The notes beneath the pieces were generated by a model that was given only the letters and a program-made list of their open reading frames with translations, was not told the origin of the DNA and searched no databases. Source: a bacterium (GTDB taxonomy: Bacteria > UBP6 > JAFGXH01). From it: DNA of 50,480 nt. The DNA lies in the NCBI GenBank assembly GCA_027064085.1, contig JAMOQH010000069.1, forward strand, positions 1 through 50,480, written 5' to 3'. Made by a program: the position numbers and the translations under genes. Positions 27,248 to 49,291 of this stretch are shown piece after piece (position 1 is the stretch's first letter; every line of letters starts with the position of its first letter).

Positions 27248-28687
27248 ATGAAATATTTAATGATTTTAGTACTTAGTTGTTTAACTTTTATTGCTTATAG
27301 TGAAGATTTTCCTATTATGCTTAATGTTAAATCAGATATTAAAATTCCAGATGATTTTAGAGATGGAGTAGAAGAATCTTTAACAACTATGGGTTATAGT
27401 CTTGTTGATGATAAAGCTCAAAAAGAAGCATTAAAGGAAAATGCAAAAGCAAGAAATTCAGAATGCTATGATGATGAATGTTTAGTTGATACGGGTAAAA
27501 TGCTTGCAGCAAGAGCATTGATTTCTGTTGAAGTTGATAAAAAAAGTGATAAACTTTATAAGTTTAAAGCTAGGTATATAGATTTTGAAACGGGTACAAC
27601 AACAAAATCAAAGGTAATGTATTATGAAGCTGAGTTAAATGATTACCAAGCTTTATCAAAATTCGGAAAAGAATTTACCAAACTATTATTAGGCGGTAAA
27701 ACTAGTAGGGATGAGGCGATGACTCATCCTGCTACTAGTAAAGTGACTCATCCTACTACTAGTAAAGCGACTCATCCTACTACTAGTAAAGCGACTCATC
27801 CTGCTACTAGTAAAGCGACTCATCCTGCTACTAGTAAAGCGACTCATCCTACTACTAGTAAAGTGACTCATCCTGCTACTAGTAAAGCGACTAGCAAAGA
27901 TATTAATAAAAACAACAACAAGGATAAACCAAAAGAGCAGTTTATTAAAAAAGATACCAAAAATAAGCCAAAAATTTCTCCTACTAAAAAAGAGAAAAAA
28001 ATTACTAATTTGTTATTAAAATCCAAAAGATATGCAAATGATTTTGATATAACAATTTCTTTACATGGGGGCAGGAATGCTTTCTTTAAAGAAAGCAATA
28101 ACGATAAAGGAAAATTTGAAGAAGATTTGGATTTATCATGGGGCGCTCTGGGTTTTGGATTCGGATTAACCTATCATTTAAATCCATGGCTTGGATTTTA
28201 TATTGATGCAAATTATACCGAAAGTAGCGGTACTGGCAACAGAGATTTCATAAATCATGAAAATAGCAATCTAAGAGAATCTTATGATATTAGGGAACTA
28301 TCTTCTAATTCATTGTTTATTAGCCTCGGAGGTATGTTTTCTTTTGGAGATATAACAGGAAAAGGCCTTGTTTATTACTTAAAAACAGCATTTTCATTTG
28401 GAAGGGATTCATTTCAACATTCTATACCAGATAATGCTCCTGATGAAGAGAAAGAAGCAGACCTAAAATACTGGGATGCATATAAAACAACATCAGTTGG
28501 TTTTTCTTTGGAAGCAGGAATTAATATTTTATTTAATAGAGATAATGGAATTGATCTATATGCCTTACTTTATTATGGTAAAGTAGTAAATGATGATTTG
28601 AGTGCAGAACCTCATTTTCTTAAATTAAAGAAAGGTGAAACAATAAAATTTCTTTTAGGAATTCGTTATAATGTGTTTTCCTTCTAA
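27248..28687 (+). CDS. Exported protein: CsgG/FlgO-like domain, octapeptide repeats, beta-barrel
   Basis: 479 residues with signal peptide MKYLMILVLSCLTFIAYS. The first domain (to about 155) has the ECYDDECLVDTGKMLAARAL signature seen in deltaproteobacterial proteins with a CsgG/FlgO-like fold. Next come seven near-identical octapeptides, THP(A/T)TSK(A/V), and a Lys-rich linker. From about residue 260 the pattern changes to alternating strands with Gly and aromatics (LGFGFGLTYHLNPWLGFYID), ending in a Phe (GIRYNVFSF): an outer-membrane beta-barrel. It may sense or link periplasm and outer membrane; its true role is unknown. The repeat block could vary in copy number without breaking the frame. 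Confidence 0.7.
   Translation: MKYLMILVLSCLTFIAYSEDFPIMLNVKSDIKIPDDFRDGVEESLTTMGYSLVDDKAQKEALKENAKARNSECYDDECLVDTGKMLAARALISVEVDKKSDKLYKFKARYIDFETGTTTKSKVMYYEAELNDYQALSKFGKEFTKLLLGGKTSRDEAMTHPATSKVTHPTTSKATHPTTSKATHPATSKATHPATSKATHPTTSKVTHPATSKATSKDINKNNNKDKPKEQFIKKDTKNKPKISPTKKEKKITNLLLKSKRYANDFDITISLHGGRNAFFKESNNDKGKFEEDLDLSWGALGFGFGLTYHLNPWLGFYIDANYTESSGTGNRDFINHENSNLRESYDIRELSSNSLFISLGGMFSFGDITGKGLVYYLKTAFSFGRDSFQHSIPDNAPDEEKEADLKYWDAYKTTSVGFSLEAGINILFNRDNGIDLYALLYYGKVVNDDLSAEPHFLKLKKGETIKFLLGIRYNVFSF
27722..27889 (+). repeat. Seven tandem 24-bp repeats inside a coding region
   Basis: Seven contiguous 24-base units, each starting ACTCATCCT and containing CTACTAGTAAAG; they differ only at G/A (ninth-tenth base region) and at GTG/GCG at the end. 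Each encodes THP(A/T)TSK(A/V). Just upstream (27701-27715) lies an inverted partial copy, ACTAGTAGGGATGAG, that can pair with the first unit (27723-27739). The unit is a multiple of three, so gain or loss keeps the frame. Confidence 0.95.
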
Positions 28688-43994: not shown

Positions 43995-45791
43995 TTATAA
44001 AAAATATAAATTAAGGTAGGCAAAATAAGCTCTACCAGCTAAAGGTATATGTAATGAGTCATAATATCTTAGTTCATTGGTTAAATTATTAACTTTGAAA
44101 TCTACATTAGAGCCATTTTTATTAAAAATATATTTAATGGAAAGCGAAATTAAATGCTTTTCCGGAATTAAATCAGTATTAAATATATTATTGTAATATT
44201 TACTTGTATAATTATAGTTGAAATCAAGTGAGTATTTTTTATATTTTAATATTAAGGTGAACTTTTCAAGTAAACGAGGTGTTTGAGGTAAATCTTTTTG
44301 AGTCTCTTTATAGATTGTTTTATTATATGATAATACATTGTTTAGTTTCATATACTTTAGTTTTATATTTGCTATGATATTAATACCCTTTGTAATGGCT
44401 TCTCTTGTATTAATTGCTTTTGTAAGTCCGAATGAAATTGGTGTAAAAATGATGTTATTTTTTAAATGACTATAGAATAATTCTGTTTTTAAGTTAAATA
44501 AAGAAAAAGACATTTGGAGTGAAATCAAATTTTTATATATTGTTTCAGGTAATAAATCCTTGTTTCCAATTACTGATGCTGATTGAAAATATTTTTCTTC
44601 AAGATATGGAATTCTTAATCCCTTTTTAGTCAGAAGTTTAAACATAAAATGTTTATTTATGTAATATATACCAGATAAACTATACTGAAATAATTTTTCA
44701 GCATAAATTCGTCCTGTTAATTTAAATATTAAGTTATCATCGAAAAAATAGTTTTCATTTTTTAAAGATAAAAAAGAATGTGATTCTTTAATATAAGGTA
44801 TATTCTTTTTACTTCCTTGATTAAAAGATACTGCAAAGTATGATAAGTTCGCTAGTTTTACATCTAAAAAACTAAATTCTGTTAATTCAAAGTCTATTTT
44901 TGCACTAGAAGAGATAGTGTTAGAATTCAGTTGATATTCTATTTTTTTTAAGCCAAAAACAGGTGGTTTATTATCTGTAAATTTGTAATTTTTATAGTTT
45001 TCAGATACTTTTACTTCTAGGTTAAATTTGCTAAATTCCTTATTGTATAAAACACCTATTAGATTTTGTAAATTTGCAGTAGTGGCTTCTATTCTTTCAA
45101 ACTGTGCACTTCCGGGGGTTCCTTTTTGATTGATAATAAAGTAATTTATAAATTTTATCTCATTAGAATTATATTTTATATAAAAATCACCTCCCCTATA
45201 AAAAGCGTTATTTCTAATTCTTTTATTGTTATGAAAATCAATGTATTCAAAATCATTTACAGAGTTAAGCAGTACACCACCTGTATCAAAAAAGCTGTTT
45301 TCTGATATCTTTATGTGATTGTTTGAGCTGATTCCATTTGTACCAAATGAGCCGTATATCATTGAAATATAATTTTTGTTTGATATATTTAAATTAATAT
45401 TGGCAGAATGAGCGGTTGTATTATCTGATGAAAAAGAATTGTCCTTGTTAATCTGAATACTGTTAAATATTCCAAAATGTAGGGCTGTTGGAGTGAAGGA
45501 TGCTAGAGATGGGGTAGTATAGTCAAAATTTTCTATGGACAAAGATACTTGAGAAGATGTTGAGCTATCAATATAGAACAATATATTACTACCTATTCCT
45601 CCTGATTTTCTTATGAATGTTGTAGTTTTATTTTCAATTGTATCCTTTGCTGGTTTTGTATCACTTCCTTGCAATGTTTTTATTGTTTCATTTTCTTCAA
45701 TACTGTTCTCTTCTATTATTACTAAATCTAGTTCTGTGGCAGAAATGTTAAATATTACAAATATGAACAGGAAAAAATATGAAAACATCAT
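43995..45791 (-). CDS. TonB-dependent outer-membrane receptor, BtuB-like
   Basis: 598 residues (597 if the second of two adjacent ATGs, better spaced from GAGAG, is used). Signal peptide: FSYFFLFIFVIFNISA. A possible TonB box (ELDLVIIEE) follows it. Residues of about 60-150 resemble a divergent plug (SLSIENFDY, FGIFNSIQIN, ANINLNIS). The remainder is a strand-rich barrel ending in VDFKVNNLTNELRYYD and PLAGRAYFAYLNLYFL, like the last strands of BtuB-type receptors with a C-terminal aromatic residue. The plug is shorter and less conserved than usual. A cobalamin riboswitch lies directly upstream, so the cargo is probably vitamin B12. The propeller lipoprotein gene follows after 16 bases. Confidence 0.85.
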   Translation of the reverse strand: MMFSYFFLFIFVIFNISATELDLVIIEENSIEENETIKTLQGSDTKPAKDTIENKTTTFIRKSGGIGSNILFYIDSSTSSQVSLSIENFDYTTPSLASFTPTALHFGIFNSIQINKDNSFSSDNTTAHSANINLNISNKNYISMIYGSFGTNGISSNNHIKISENSFFDTGGVLLNSVNDFEYIDFHNNKRIRNNAFYRGGDFYIKYNSNEIKFINYFIINQKGTPGSAQFERIEATTANLQNLIGVLYNKEFSKFNLEVKVSENYKNYKFTDNKPPVFGLKKIEYQLNSNTISSSAKIDFELTEFSFLDVKLANLSYFAVSFNQGSKKNIPYIKESHSFLSLKNENYFFDDNLIFKLTGRIYAEKLFQYSLSGIYYINKHFMFKLLTKKGLRIPYLEEKYFQSASVIGNKDLLPETIYKNLISLQMSFSLFNLKTELFYSHLKNNIIFTPISFGLTKAINTREAITKGINIIANIKLKYMKLNNVLSYNKTIYKETQKDLPQTPRLLEKFTLILKYKKYSLDFNYNYTSKYYNNIFNTDLIPEKHLISLSIKYIFNKNGSNVDFKVNNLTNELRYYDSLHIPLAGRAYFAYLNLYFL

Positions 45792-45910: not shown

Positions 45911-45939
45911 TATATACTATTATTAATAATTTATGTCAA
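45911..45939 (-). promoter_or_regulatory. Promoter of the riboswitch-receptor operon
   Basis: On the minus strand TTGACA (45939-45934), a 17-base spacer and TATATA (45916-45911). The predicted start lies close to the first base of the riboswitch. The -35 box falls inside the left 21-bp direct repeat. Confidence 0.7.
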
Positions 45940-45952
45940 ATATTAAAATATC
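45932..45952. repeat. 21-bp direct repeat, left end of island
   Basis: Begins TATGTCAAATATTAAAA and ends in TATC; identical to 48250-48270 in the same orientation. It includes the -35 box of the leftward riboswitch promoter. Confidence 0.85.
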
Positions 45953-45954
45953 AT

Positions 45955-46086
45955 GCGTACACCGTGGGTGAGAAAGCAAAAATTGCCCATTATGATTTAT
46001 ATTTAGATAAAAAATCAAAAGAAATCTTTATTTATGGTAAAGGCGGTAAGGGTGAAGGAATTTCTACAGGAGTAAAAATTGAATAA
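45955..46086 (+). pseudogene. C-terminal tail of a polymorphic-toxin-like protein (fragment)
   Basis: The last 43 residues of an open frame whose upstream part is only the antisense of the riboswitch. The segment AHYDLYLDKKSKEIFIYGKG, then GKGEGISTGVKI, resembles the C-terminal end of secreted polymorphic toxins, by recall. It has no start codon or secretion domain of its own and begins three bases after the left island repeat. It overlaps the start of an immunity-like gene, the usual toxin-immunity arrangement. It looks like an orphan cassette whose 5' part was lost. Confidence 0.5.
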
Positions 46087-46486
46087 TAAAATAATATATA
46101 AAGTTTATTTTAGTATATTTGGAAATGAATTTAATTTAAATGTTTTTAATAAAATTATAGGAGTTATTCCATCTGATACATATATTAAAGGAGAGATGGG
46201 GAAGTATGCAAGATATAAAGAGACATCATGGAGTTATGTTATTGAAGAATATGAAAACTTAAATTTAGATGATTTAACACGCAGACTTTTAAGGATATTT
46301 GATAATAAAAAGGAGTTATTAAAAAAATATGCAGAAAAAAATAATTTGGAAATACGATTTTCTGTTGTATTTAATATTTATGATTCTATTATTCCTTCTT
46401 TATATATTGATAAAAAATTTTTAAACTTCTTAAGTTTTTTAAATTGTGATATTGATTTTGATGGTTACTTATTAAGTGTAGGGTGA
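46079..46486 (+). CDS. DUF4279-like immunity protein
   Basis: 135 residues from a TTG with GGAG seven bases upstream, overlapping the toxin fragment's end. The pattern fits DUF4279: YKVYFSIFGNEFNLNVFNKI, then IGVIPSDTYIKGE, a KETSWSYVIEEYENLNLDDL segment, a helix (LLRIFDNKKELLKKYAEKNN) and a strand LEIRFSVVFNIYDS. DUF4279 proteins often sit behind polymorphic toxins and are taken as immunity proteins. The gene seems intact although its toxin is not, which would fit protection against neighbours' toxins. The family call is by eye. Confidence 0.65.
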   Translation: MNNKIIYKVYFSIFGNEFNLNVFNKIIGVIPSDTYIKGEMGKYARYKETSWSYVIEEYENLNLDDLTRRLLRIFDNKKELLKKYAEKNNLEIRFSVVFNIYDSIIPSLYIDKKFLNFLSFLNCDIDFDGYLLSVG

Positions 46487-46508
46487 AAATTATGATTTAA
46501 ATAATAAA

Positions 46509-46557
46509 AAATAACACCTTTTGTTTGCCCATAGTTTCCTGATTCCCAAACGATTAT
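46509..46557. repeat. 49-bp direct repeat, upstream copy (Rpn flank)
   Basis: Starts AAATAACACCTTTTGTTTGC and ends CCCAAACGATTAT. It matches 47688-47736 at 48 of 49 bases (one T/C difference), same orientation. A shared GGCTTAAAT follows both copies after an indel. In the downstream copy the repeat begins with the last codon and stop of the Rpn gene. Confidence 0.92.
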
Positions 46558-46624
46558 CAAGGCTTAAATAAAAAAAATTAAATTTAACACTTAATTTTCT
46601 TTCTTGCGTAAATTATTTTTACAA

Positions 46625-46669
46625 GCTATATTATAATATAGCTCCCTGAAAGCAAGGCATCTTGCTTTC
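46625..46669. repeat. Palindrome and stable hairpin in the Rpn leader
   Basis: GCTATATTATAATATAGC (46625-46642) is a perfect 18-bp palindrome. Directly after it GAAAGCAAG (46648-46656) pairs with CTTGCTTTC (46661-46669) over the loop GCAT. They lie 30-90 bases before the Rpn start and could form a structured leader, an operator or a recombination site. Confidence 0.6.
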
Positions 46670-46712
46670 GAGCCTCTCCTTGGAGGAAAATGTTTGTATA
46701 GGAGGTTTAATA

Positions 46713-47693
46713 GTGAAAAAGCAAGAAGATAAAATAGAAAACCGTTATGACAAAACTTTAAAAGAGCTTTTAGATAATAAAACTCTAATGAGAGAGTTAA
46801 TAACAGGTTTTATTGATAGAGAATGGATAAAAGATCTTGATTTTAGAACTTTAAAAAAGGAAAAAACAGATTTTCTATCAGAAGATTTAAAAGAATTTAG
46901 AAAAGATTTACTTTGGAGTGTTAAACTTAAAGGCAATAAAATTTATTTTTATATACATATAGAATTTCAATCAACTCCAGACAGAACTATGCCTTTTAGG
47001 TTTTTAATTTATGATAGTTTATTACATATAGATATTTTAAATGGAAGAAAGAGGGTAGAAAAAAGTAATAAATTACCATTTATTTTTCCTATTTTATTTT
47101 ATGTAGGAGAGAATGAATGGAAGTTTGAATTTGATTTAACTAAATTGATAGAGCAACCATTTGAAAATGCTATAAATTATATTCCTAAATTTGAAATATT
47201 TAAAATAATGTTAAATGAAAAAAGTTTAGAAGATTTAAAGAATATAGGTAATTTACTTGCCAATATTTTTGCAACCGATAATAAAGAAATAAATGAAGAA
47301 GAATTAAATGAAATAATAATTAAAATGAAACAAATATTATCAGGATATGATAAAGAAAAAGAATTAATAATGCTTGATAAAATCAATAAATTTATGACAC
47401 TAATATCAAGTGATAAAATAAATGTTGAAGATGCATTACAAACATTAAATAAGGAGGACAAAGTGGGAGGATTTGGTATTTTACTCGATAAAAAAGAACA
47501 AGAGGGCATGGAAAAAGGCATAGAAAAAGGCATGGAAAAAGGCATGGAAAAAGGCATGGAAAAAGCAAAAATTGAAACTGCAATTGAAATGCTGAAACTT
47601 GGTGCTGAACTTGTATTTGTACAAAAAGCAACTAAGTTACCTACAGAAAAAGTTAAAGAGTTACAAAAAGAAGTAAATTTAGAAAATAAATAA
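46713..47693 (+). CDS. Rpn-family PD-(D/E)XK nuclease (recombination-promoting nuclease)
   Basis: 326 residues from a GTG with GGAGG eight bases upstream. The N-terminal domain is Rpn/transposase_31-like: YDKTLKELLDNKTLMRELIT, DFRTL, then RKDLLWSVKLKGNKIYFYIH followed by IEFQSTPDRTMPFRFLIYDS, which supplies the catalytic Asp and Glu-x-Gln. A helical region follows, then a repeat of (G)MEKG five times (repeated GGCATGGAAAAA in DNA) and a small C-terminal helical module. Rpn proteins are DNA endonucleases linked to RecA-independent recombination and, in E. coli, to phage defence. The gene is flanked by 49-bp direct repeats and contains a likely internal start. Confidence 0.87.
   Translation: MKKQEDKIENRYDKTLKELLDNKTLMRELITGFIDREWIKDLDFRTLKKEKTDFLSEDLKEFRKDLLWSVKLKGNKIYFYIHIEFQSTPDRTMPFRFLIYDSLLHIDILNGRKRVEKSNKLPFIFPILFYVGENEWKFEFDLTKLIEQPFENAINYIPKFEIFKIMLNEKSLEDLKNIGNLLANIFATDNKEINEEELNEIIIKMKQILSGYDKEKELIMLDKINKFMTLISSDKINVEDALQTLNKEDKVGGFGILLDKKEQEGMEKGIEKGMEKGMEKGMEKAKIETAIEMLKLGAELVFVQKATKLPTEKVKELQKEVNLENK
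47463..47693 (+). CDS. Possible intragenic small protein (RpnS-like) within the Rpn gene
   Basis: Inside the Rpn frame an exact AAGGAGG (47451-47457) lies five bases before an in-frame GTG (47463). Translation from it would give 76 residues: VGGFGILLDKKEQE, the MEKG repeats and the C-terminal helical module, without the nuclease. From E. coli work as I recall it, rpn genes make such C-terminal proteins from internal starts and these inhibit the full-length nuclease. A Shine-Dalgarno this strong, in good spacing, is notable. Expression is not shown. Confidence 0.55.
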   Translation: MGGFGILLDKKEQEGMEKGIEKGMEKGMEKGMEKAKIETAIEMLKLGAELVFVQKATKLPTEKVKELQKEVNLENK

Positions 47694-47736
47694 CACCTTT
47701 TGTTTGCCCATAGCTTCCTGATTCCCAAACGATTAT
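47688..47736. repeat. 49-bp direct repeat, downstream copy (Rpn flank)
   Basis: Matches 46509-46557 at 48 of 49 bases. Its first bases are the end of the Rpn coding sequence including the TAA, so the upstream copy looks like the 3' end of another, lost Rpn-type gene or a duplication made on insertion. Confidence 0.92.
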
Positions 47737-47764
47737 TATTTTGCTTGGCAGGCTTAAATGAACG

Positions 47765-47824
47765 AAAACTGCATTCGCAGGTTGAGAGAACAGCGTAAAA
47801 CTTGCACTTGCAAGGTTGGAGCTA
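47765..47824. repeat. Two imperfect copies of a short hairpin-bearing repeat
   Basis: Copy 1, AAAACTGCATTCGCAGGTTG followed by AGAGAAC; copy 2 (from 47797), AAAACTTGCACTTGCAAGGT followed by TGGAGCTAC. Each has a four-base-loop hairpin, CTGC-ATTC-GCAG and CTTGC-ACTT-GCAAG, followed by a GTTG-GAG-like tail. The GAAAGCAAG-GCAT-CTTGCTTTC hairpin upstream of the Rpn gene is of similar design. Confidence 0.5.
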
Positions 47825-48070
47825 CAAAAAGGAGAAAAAGTAGTACTTCCAGATGGAAAGATAATAGAATATGATACAAAATTTGTTTTTTTTACGATGT
47901 ATTTTTATCCTACTTTTCCCTGTTGTTACACAATTAATCTTTGCTCTAATTTTTTTGGGGACATCAACCGAAATATAGTAAAGCTTATATGTGAGTCTTA
48001 TGTAAAATGTAATAATAACAACGCCTTTATTTTATAAACTATATGAATTCGGCATCATTAGAAAGCTTAA

Positions 48071-48202
48071 ATGATATTGGGTTTGATTGATTTTAGATAT
48101 ACTCAAGGTTTTAATGAGTTTTCAGAAAGTGTTAGGTCAAGTGTAACTGTAATTTATTATAATCGTCGCCAGTTTTTAATTTATTTAGGTTATGAATTTT
48201 AG
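48071..48202 (+). pseudogene. C-terminal remnant of an outer-membrane beta-barrel protein
   Basis: A 43-residue frame ends DFRYTQGFNEFSESVRSSVT, then VIYYNRRQFLIYLGYEF and a stop. Alternating hydrophobic residues and a final aromatic Phe after LGYEF are the hallmark of the last two strands of an outer-membrane barrel. There is no ribosome site and no upstream barrel in any frame, so this is debris of a lost gene just inside the right island repeat. Confidence 0.6.
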
Positions 48203-48249
48203 TTAAATTCGTTAGTTTTTCATTAGATGAGAGTAATAACTTCTATCTA

Positions 48250-48270
48250 TATGTCAAATATTAAAATATC
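48250..48270. repeat. 21-bp direct repeat, right end of island
   Basis: Identical to 45932-45952, same orientation. It is followed at once by the -35 box of the secreted propeller gene. Confidence 0.85.
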
Positions 48271-48299
48271 TTGACTTTTTTTATAGTTAATCTTAAAAT
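48271..48299 (+). promoter_or_regulatory. Promoter of the secreted propeller gene
   Basis: TTGACT (48271-48276), 17 bases, TAAAAT (48294-48299), with the ATG 26 bases further after AAAGGAG. The -35 begins at the base after the island repeat. Confidence 0.65.
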
Positions 48300-48325: not shown

Positions 48326-49291
48326 ATGAATAAAGTTTTAGTTATGATTTTAGCATTTTTATTAATTAATACTGCTTTAATGGCAGAAGATGTTATTTTA
48401 GTTGCTGCAAAAGTAAAAATTGATGCTTATTCACCAAAAGATATGAAGTATTTAGGTAAATTTGCAGACTTAAAAGAGTTATTAAAACCAACCTGTATGG
48501 CTATTTCATCAGATGATAAATTAATTGTTGCTGGCTCTGCCTTATCTTATACTGCTAGAGAATCAATAATTAAATTAAACTCAGATGGAACACTAGATAA
48601 AGTTTTATTTGAAAATACAGGTTATAATACACCTATAGATACTCCAAAAGCTATTGTTGAACTAGATGATGGCTCTTTGGTAGTTTTTGATACAGGTAAT
48701 AAGAAAGTATTTAAAATATCAAAAACTGGTGAGTTTTTAGGAGATTTTTTTCAAGTAGGTTCAGATAAAGCTGAATTATCAAGGATAAGTACTATTTTTA
48801 AATATGGTTCAGATATAGTAGTCGCTGCATCAGATCCAGATTATAAACTTGTCGAATATGATGCTAATGGTGTTTTTGTTACAAATCTTACAGATGGTAA
48901 CGAGTATATTTTAAACCCATTTCACATATCAAAAACTGATAATGGTTATATTATGGTTGCTTTAGCATTAATTGATATAAATGGAACTAAAGAGCAAATT
49001 TCGACACTTATTCAATTAGATAATGATTTAATACTTGTTAAAAAATTGATTTCGGATAATGATATTAAAAAGAAGTCATTGATCAGGCCAAGATTTGCTC
49101 TTAAAAATGAATCAACAGGCAAGTATTTAATTATAGACGAAGGAAGAAATAGAGGTACAACAAAGTCTTATGATGATAACTTAGAGTTATTCTCTCCTGA
49201 TGGAAGATATGAAAAATCTTTAGGTACATACGAAGATACATTATTAAGACATATAATATTATTTAAGGGTTCTACTAAAAAGTGGAAATAA
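48326..49291 (+). CDS. Exported beta-propeller-like protein
   Basis: 321 residues with a cleavable signal peptide (MNKVLVMILAFLLINTALMA) and AAAGGAG before the ATG. The mature protein has about five or six repeated four-strand units, such as PTCMAISSDDKLIVAGSA, PKAIVELDDGSLVVFDTG and NPFHISKTDNGYIMVALA (NHL/6-bladed propeller type). It has no Cys-lipobox, so it is periplasmic or secreted. Ligand unknown. ppa starts nine bases after its stop and probably shares the transcript. Confidence 0.72.
   Translation: MNKVLVMILAFLLINTALMAEDVILVAAKVKIDAYSPKDMKYLGKFADLKELLKPTCMAISSDDKLIVAGSALSYTARESIIKLNSDGTLDKVLFENTGYNTPIDTPKAIVELDDGSLVVFDTGNKKVFKISKTGEFLGDFFQVGSDKAELSRISTIFKYGSDIVVAASDPDYKLVEYDANGVFVTNLTDGNEYILNPFHISKTDNGYIMVALALIDINGTKEQISTLIQLDNDLILVKKLISDNDIKKKSLIRPRFALKNESTGKYLIIDEGRNRGTTKSYDDNLELFSPDGRYEKSLGTYEDTLLRHIILFKGSTKKWK

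Follow-up and report, generated by a model that had tools for sequence, protein, structure and literature searches.

Two nested gene-sized insertions between divergent promoters in a UBP6 bacterium, probably made with long target duplications

The window analysed in the present study, a stretch of 50,480 nucleotides from contig JAMOQH010000069.1 of a bacterium of the lineage UBP6, contains a 2.3-kb island located between the promoter of a riboswitch-btuB-like operon and the promoter of a gene encoding a secreted beta-propeller-like protein. The island consists of two insertions, one nested inside the other, each flanked by its own direct repeat. The outer insert carries the tail of an Ntox33 toxin gene and an intact DUF4279 gene, and the inner insert carries an rpn gene. 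Both are gene-sized and probably belong to the class known as insertion with long target duplication, in which no dedicated integrase would have acted.

Structure of the island

The borders of the island are formed by TATGTCAAATATTAAAATATC, a perfect 21-bp direct repeat on the plus strand (45932-45952 and 48250-48270), found at exactly the positions where a preliminary description of this DNA had noted identical 21-base termini. The whole-genome search proposed in that description detected only these two copies without mismatch in the 3.65-Mb genome; there is no third perfect copy. At three mismatches, three further sites were found, compared with two for a reversed control. Order-4 Markov versions of the window (150 in all) contained perfect repeats of at least 20 bp within 3 kb at a rate of 0.027 per window and those of at least 22 bp at a rate of 0.007, and the outer repeat exceeds the length expected by chance.

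Both flanking promoters are complete. The perfect -35 hexamer TTGACA (minus strand, 45939-45934), upstream of a cobalamin riboswitch, sits within the left copy of the repeat, and the TTGACT (48271-48276) of the propeller gene directly abuts the right copy, as had been described. The integrity of both promoters despite the insert between them is expected if the 21 bp were duplicated at insertion. The earlier view that the island was inserted between the divergent promoters, with duplication of its target, is supported.

A second direct repeat, which the preliminary description had missed, flanks rpn alone. It is 49 bp long with one mismatch (46509-46557 and 47688-47736). Since rpn possesses a target duplication of its own, it represents a later insertion inside the first one. 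The suggestion that the Rpn gene had mobilised the 2.3-kb island was therefore rejected: the gene is nested, and equally long duplications flank inserts that contain no rpn (C40 and C133, see below). No transposase, integrase or recombinase gene was found in the insert, which bears out the earlier remark that no known integrase is present.

The same scar at other loci

Stretches of the same genome, which were rich in rpn contigs and hence not a random sample, were screened for direct repeats. This search for similar inserts, also suggested beforehand, revealed the same architecture at other loci, each with a different repeat sequence. Outside the window, there are five clear cases in the same genome (C151, C20, C7, C40 and C133) and two elsewhere in the phylum (G012 and G024). 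At C151, a 47-bp repeat (91.5% identical) from the 3' end of a phosphatase-like gene located before recG surrounds a shortened rpn, and at C20, rpn is surrounded by a perfect 86-bp repeat made up of the stop codon of a DnaJ-domain gene and its 3' flank. The C7 repeat (43 bp, one mismatch) lies around an rpn-type gene of the PDDEXK_2 family. The repeats of G012 (44 bp) and G024 (41 bp) are perfect, and both lie around rpn. In G012, the repeat stops exactly in front of a transglycosylase stop codon, and in G024, it ends within that of an aromatic-lyase gene.

The two remaining inserts have no rpn. The 2.8-kb insert of C40 (L080:8949-11900) illustrates this type of insertion in a recent, clean form: a perfect 91-bp repeat of the atpC 3' end encloses a PIN-domain toxin gene and a 168-aa gene that matches no Pfam family and may be an orphan immunity gene. 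At C133, a 119-bp repeat (94%) that spans the end of a dehydrogenase gene lies around an oxidoreductase gene. Long repeats originating from repeat proteins and paralogues (L065, L066, L067, L082, L089 and others) were set aside.

The repeats of the seven other loci are thus 41-119 bp long, beside 21 and 49 bp in the window. All nine are mutually unrelated in sequence and have no common core, and the inserts have no terminal inverted repeats. Four of the nine pairs carry mismatches and five are perfect. Most of the duplications are the 3' ends of intact neighbouring genes, and in all six rpn cases rpn follows, on the downstream side and in the same direction, the gene that supplied the duplicated 3' end or 3' flank. 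The inserted rpn units extend from the promoter to within about 17 bp of the stop codon. A site-specific recombinase and an ordinary transposon are both excluded, since the targets are unrelated, the duplications vary in length and inverted repeats are absent.

Repeats of this kind are enriched around rpn. An open reading frame (ORF) was counted as flanked when both of its sides had a repeat arm no more than 500 bp away. By this rule, repeats flank 6 of 24 rpn ORFs versus 6 of 551 other ORFs taken as controls from the same stretches (Fisher p = 2e-6). With strong repeats only, the counts were 6/24 and 1/551 (p = 2e-8). Altogether, the genome of the window (G000) contains about 30 rpn-like matches, many of them cut by contig ends; several copies are degraded by internal deletions (C151, C159). 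In other phyla, 4 of 19 newly returned rpn loci are repeat-flanked, and their repeats resemble dispersed repeats or tandem rpn arrays, not gene ends. This ambiguity limits the claim to the phylum of the window. Around the rpn genes at L190:1199-2606 and L183:449-1696 lie short repeats of the TTTTCAGGATTATAG / TTAATCCTGTCTAAAAAAA type, perhaps dispersed or associated with ends, a pattern different from that of the window's phylum. L195 (G384) apparently holds two rpn-type genes in a tandem array, with 115-bp repeats separating the units. No rpn was found in viral contigs.

Proposed mechanism

A fragment with the Ntox33 end, the DUF4279 gene and trailing DNA would first have been joined between the riboswitch-btuB and propeller promoters. 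The target would have been broken by nicks about 21 bp apart, and fill-in of the overhangs would have duplicated these 21 bp, so that both promoters survived. Later, an rpn unit of about 1.1 kb, from its own promoter to the stop codon, would have been inserted likewise just behind the immunity gene, with a duplication of at least 49 bp. At all the loci, nicks 21-119 bp apart may have been filled in around a captured fragment, which would be linear foreign DNA; such an event would yield exactly the structure observed. Ten genomes of the phylum lack Ku, which makes classical bacterial end joining unlikely; Ku-dependent end joining was rejected on this ground, and the capture would have followed a Ku-independent route. 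The inserts would have been retained because toxin-antitoxin and immunity genes are presumably selected or addictive.

In Escherichia coli, RpnA acts as a weak endonuclease without specificity and increases RecA-independent recombination (PMC5350276). A role for Rpn in making the break is therefore possible, and the breaks may be made by its own nuclease activity. Rpn could still drive its own insertion. But the two inserts without rpn bear the same scar, and the enrichment of toxin-antitoxin and immunity genes may equally reflect the keeping of such genes once they are in.

Alternative explanations

Integration of the Campbell type would require a circle, or DNA of a relative, that already carried the target piece beside the accessory gene and recombined homologously, leaving the shared piece on both sides. 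It accounts for the genic nature of the repeats and for the few mismatches between copies, and it is the explanation favoured for the transposed genes of Arabidopsis (PMC2869330). However, it needs a prior event by which every one of the different inserts acquired the 3' end of its own target gene as a neighbour, and 21-49 bp is short for RecA-dependent recombination. Its probability seems to be low. The same low rank is given to a dedicated activity of Rpn, by which the protein would nick the target at widely separated points close to the 3' ends of genes and put in its own promoter-to-stop unit with duplications of about 40-90 bp, while toxin-immunity fragments would be captured at the same breaks. 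To our knowledge, Rpn proteins, being PD-(D/E)XK nucleases, have no known transposase activity.

A regulatory role of the 21-mer, as an operator duplicated to serve both promoters and unrelated to the island, is very unlikely. The core ATATTAAAATAT reads as an imperfect palindrome, and both copies are in contact with a -35 element. However, all 21 bp of the repeat match, its limits coincide exactly with the borders of the insert, it truncates the toxin gene, and no third copy is found near other promoters.

The site-specific cassette put forward in the preliminary description, here taken as an integrase-dependent, integron or tyrosine-recombinase island lacking its own recombinase, with the 21-mer as att site, hardly survives. 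The perfect terminal direct repeats and the insertion at gene 3' ends, as in many genomic islands, would suit it, but the comparable inserts of the genome and phylum carry unrelated repeats with no common core, the 21-mer occurs nowhere else and the insert has no recombinase gene. An assembly artefact, in which the island was misjoined at a shared 21-mer (a common k-mer size), is just as implausible: the assembly is of the metagenome type, with 195 contigs and many rpn copies at contig ends, but a 21-mer common to two places normally breaks a contig instead of extending it, and the other eight repeats are 41-119 bp long, four of the nine are mismatched and the same architecture occurs in independent genomes.

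Several observations nevertheless weigh against insertion with long target duplication. The 21-bp repeat is the shortest and weakest of the nine and is AT-rich, with a GC content of 14%. Eighteen of the 24 rpn genes have no such repeats, and rpnA, B, C and E of E. coli K-12 have no flanking repeats. No empty site was found, the same-family genomes G001 and G002 carrying propeller homologues in other neighbourhoods. As five of the nine repeats are perfect and the analysis was made from a fragmented assembly, not from reads, assembly effects are not wholly excludable; yet the lengths vary and four pairs are mismatched. A scan of genome contigs for the empty site returned a distant match alone, and a concatenated search for the neighbours of other inserts found recG and the dehydrogenase gene and no informative empty site. 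On balance, insertion with long target duplication remains the probable explanation.

Gene content of the island and its flanks

The features are listed in Table 1. The 5' truncation of the Ntox33 gene falls exactly at the left repeat. The C-terminal part, about 37 of the 65 profile positions, remains, the N-terminal half and the trafficking part are missing, and this tail is the sole Ntox33 copy in the genome. The DUF4279 protein is expected to be the cognate immunity protein of Ntox33. The order Ntox33 then DUF4279 is a known toxin-immunity arrangement, also found on a Leptospira plasmid and in a Salmonella Rhs locus (PMC13304343). The toxin tail, the immunity gene and the Rpn nuclease named in the preliminary description match Ntox33, DUF4279 and Transposase_31/Rpn. 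The "barrel debris" is the 38-aa tail, which has no relatives elsewhere in the genome, so its identity is unproven. A genome search for a donor of the toxin or of the barrel debris found none.

Table 1. Features of the island and adjacent genes (positions in the window)
Feature	Position	Strand	Remarks
BtuB-like TonB-dependent receptor, left flank	43995..45791	-	weak TIGR01779 match, E 1e-4
Cobalamin riboswitch RF00174	45805..45935	-	Rfam, 34 bits, gathering 31.5
Promoter of riboswitch-btuB-like operon	45911..45939	-	TTGACA, 17 nt, TATATA
Left 21-bp copy, outer target duplication	45932..45952	+	holds -35 hexamer of minus-strand riboswitch operon
Ntox33 toxin tail	45952..46086	+	PF15533, E 2.5e-8; profile positions 28-64 of 65; no own start
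DUF4279 protein, intact	46079..46486	+	PF14106, E 4e-20
Left copy, inner target duplication	46509..46557	+	similarity resumes after indel to about 46576
rpn promoter and 5' region	46604..46712	+	TTGCGT -35-like, AT-rich -10 region, AGGAGG ribosome site
rpn gene, nested insert	46713..47693	+	PF04754, E 3.9e-27; TIGR01784 above cut-off
Putative intragenic RpnS (antitoxin)	47463..47693	+	AGGAGG 47452-47457, GTG 47463, in frame with rpn, 76 aa
Right copy, inner target duplication	47688..47736	+	begins at last sense codon of rpn; after indel resumes to about 47768
Remainder of insert, non-coding or debris	47737-48249		
38-aa tail ending in Phe, debris	48086..48202	+	possibly last strands of outer-membrane barrel
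Right 21-bp copy, outer target duplication	48250..48270	+	
Promoter of secreted propeller gene	48271..48299	+	TTGACT, 17 nt, TAAAAT; directly abuts right repeat
Secreted beta-propeller-like protein, right flank	48326..49291	+	

The product of rpn contains the PD-(D/E)XK Transposase_31 domain of the Rpn family. An Rpn toxin can be accompanied by an RpnS antitoxin produced from inside its gene (PMC10327210), and the internal AGGAGG and GTG, a putative start, fit such an antitoxin. Other rpn copies of the genome have a common TTGCAC...TATACT...AGGAGG. The -10 region of the window's rpn is covered by a perfect 20-bp palindrome, AGCTATATTATAATATAGCT (46624-46643).

The 22-mer AACACCTTTTGTTTGCCCATAG, which is also part of the inner duplication, is found with at most two mismatches at 46513-46534 and 47692-47713 of the window and at G000:C40:25127-25148, only behind two different immunity-type genes. 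It is possibly a common tail of toxin-immunity cassettes. The hairpin-rich DNA behind the rpn insert (47754-47791) has a 39-bp match (90%) to G000:C110:8884-8922, which lies just before a PDDEXK_2 gene. Far from the island, the window contains a tandem array of the 24-bp repeat CTACTAGTAAAGCGACTCATCCTG (27720-27892).

Comparison with known systems

The inserts have neither the common att core nor the recombinase gene that characterise tyrosine-recombinase islands and integron cassettes. They also differ from insertion sequence (IS) elements and DDE transposons, which have terminal inverted repeats and short duplications of fixed length, whereas the duplications here measure 21-119 bp. The outer insert shares its gene order, toxin domain then DUF4279, with the Ntox33-DUF4279 polymorphic toxin pairs, but here the toxin is incomplete, with no complete 65-position domain fused to a trafficking protein, and the immunity gene alone is intact.

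The nested gene resembles known rpn (YhgA-like) genes (PMC10327210; PMC5350276) in its family (PF04754, TIGR01784) and in having, inside the gene, a ribosome site and a start for an RpnS-like protein. The rpn genes have been reported without target-site duplications. Unlike them, 6 of the 24 rpn genes in the phylum of the window are flanked by 41-86 bp direct repeats, which qualifies the published absence. The transposed genes of Arabidopsis are likewise non-transposon genes flanked by direct repeats from the target gene, and have been attributed to recombination between tandem repeats and reinsertion of a circle (PMC2869330). They differ in belonging to a eukaryote.

Insertion with long target duplication was reportedly described for restriction-modification genes by Nobusato et al. 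in 2000 (Gene 259:99) and by Furuta et al. in 2010. In Helicobacter, according to PMC3031569, restriction-modification genes are inserted with long, variable direct target duplications and no transposase. The inserts studied here are similar to the extent described there, being single units of an addictive type with long and variable target repeats, and they share no recognition sequence and have no terminal inverted repeats. In contrast to the restriction-modification case, the cargo consists of rpn and polymorphic-toxin immunity modules, the phylum is different and the targets are mostly gene 3' ends. As the Ntox33 tail, DUF4279 and Rpn are not restriction-modification proteins, membership is claimed for the insertion mode and not for the cargo. 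The data fit an extension of this mode to rpn and polymorphic-toxin immunity genes.

The entry of lone defence and toxin-antitoxin genes into chromosomes without a recombinase still awaits an explanation. In this phylum its scars can be seen, recur at several loci and are statistically enriched at rpn. They provide testable junctions and suggest that this mode of insertion is a general way into the chromosome for small addictive genes, beyond the restriction-modification genes of Helicobacter.
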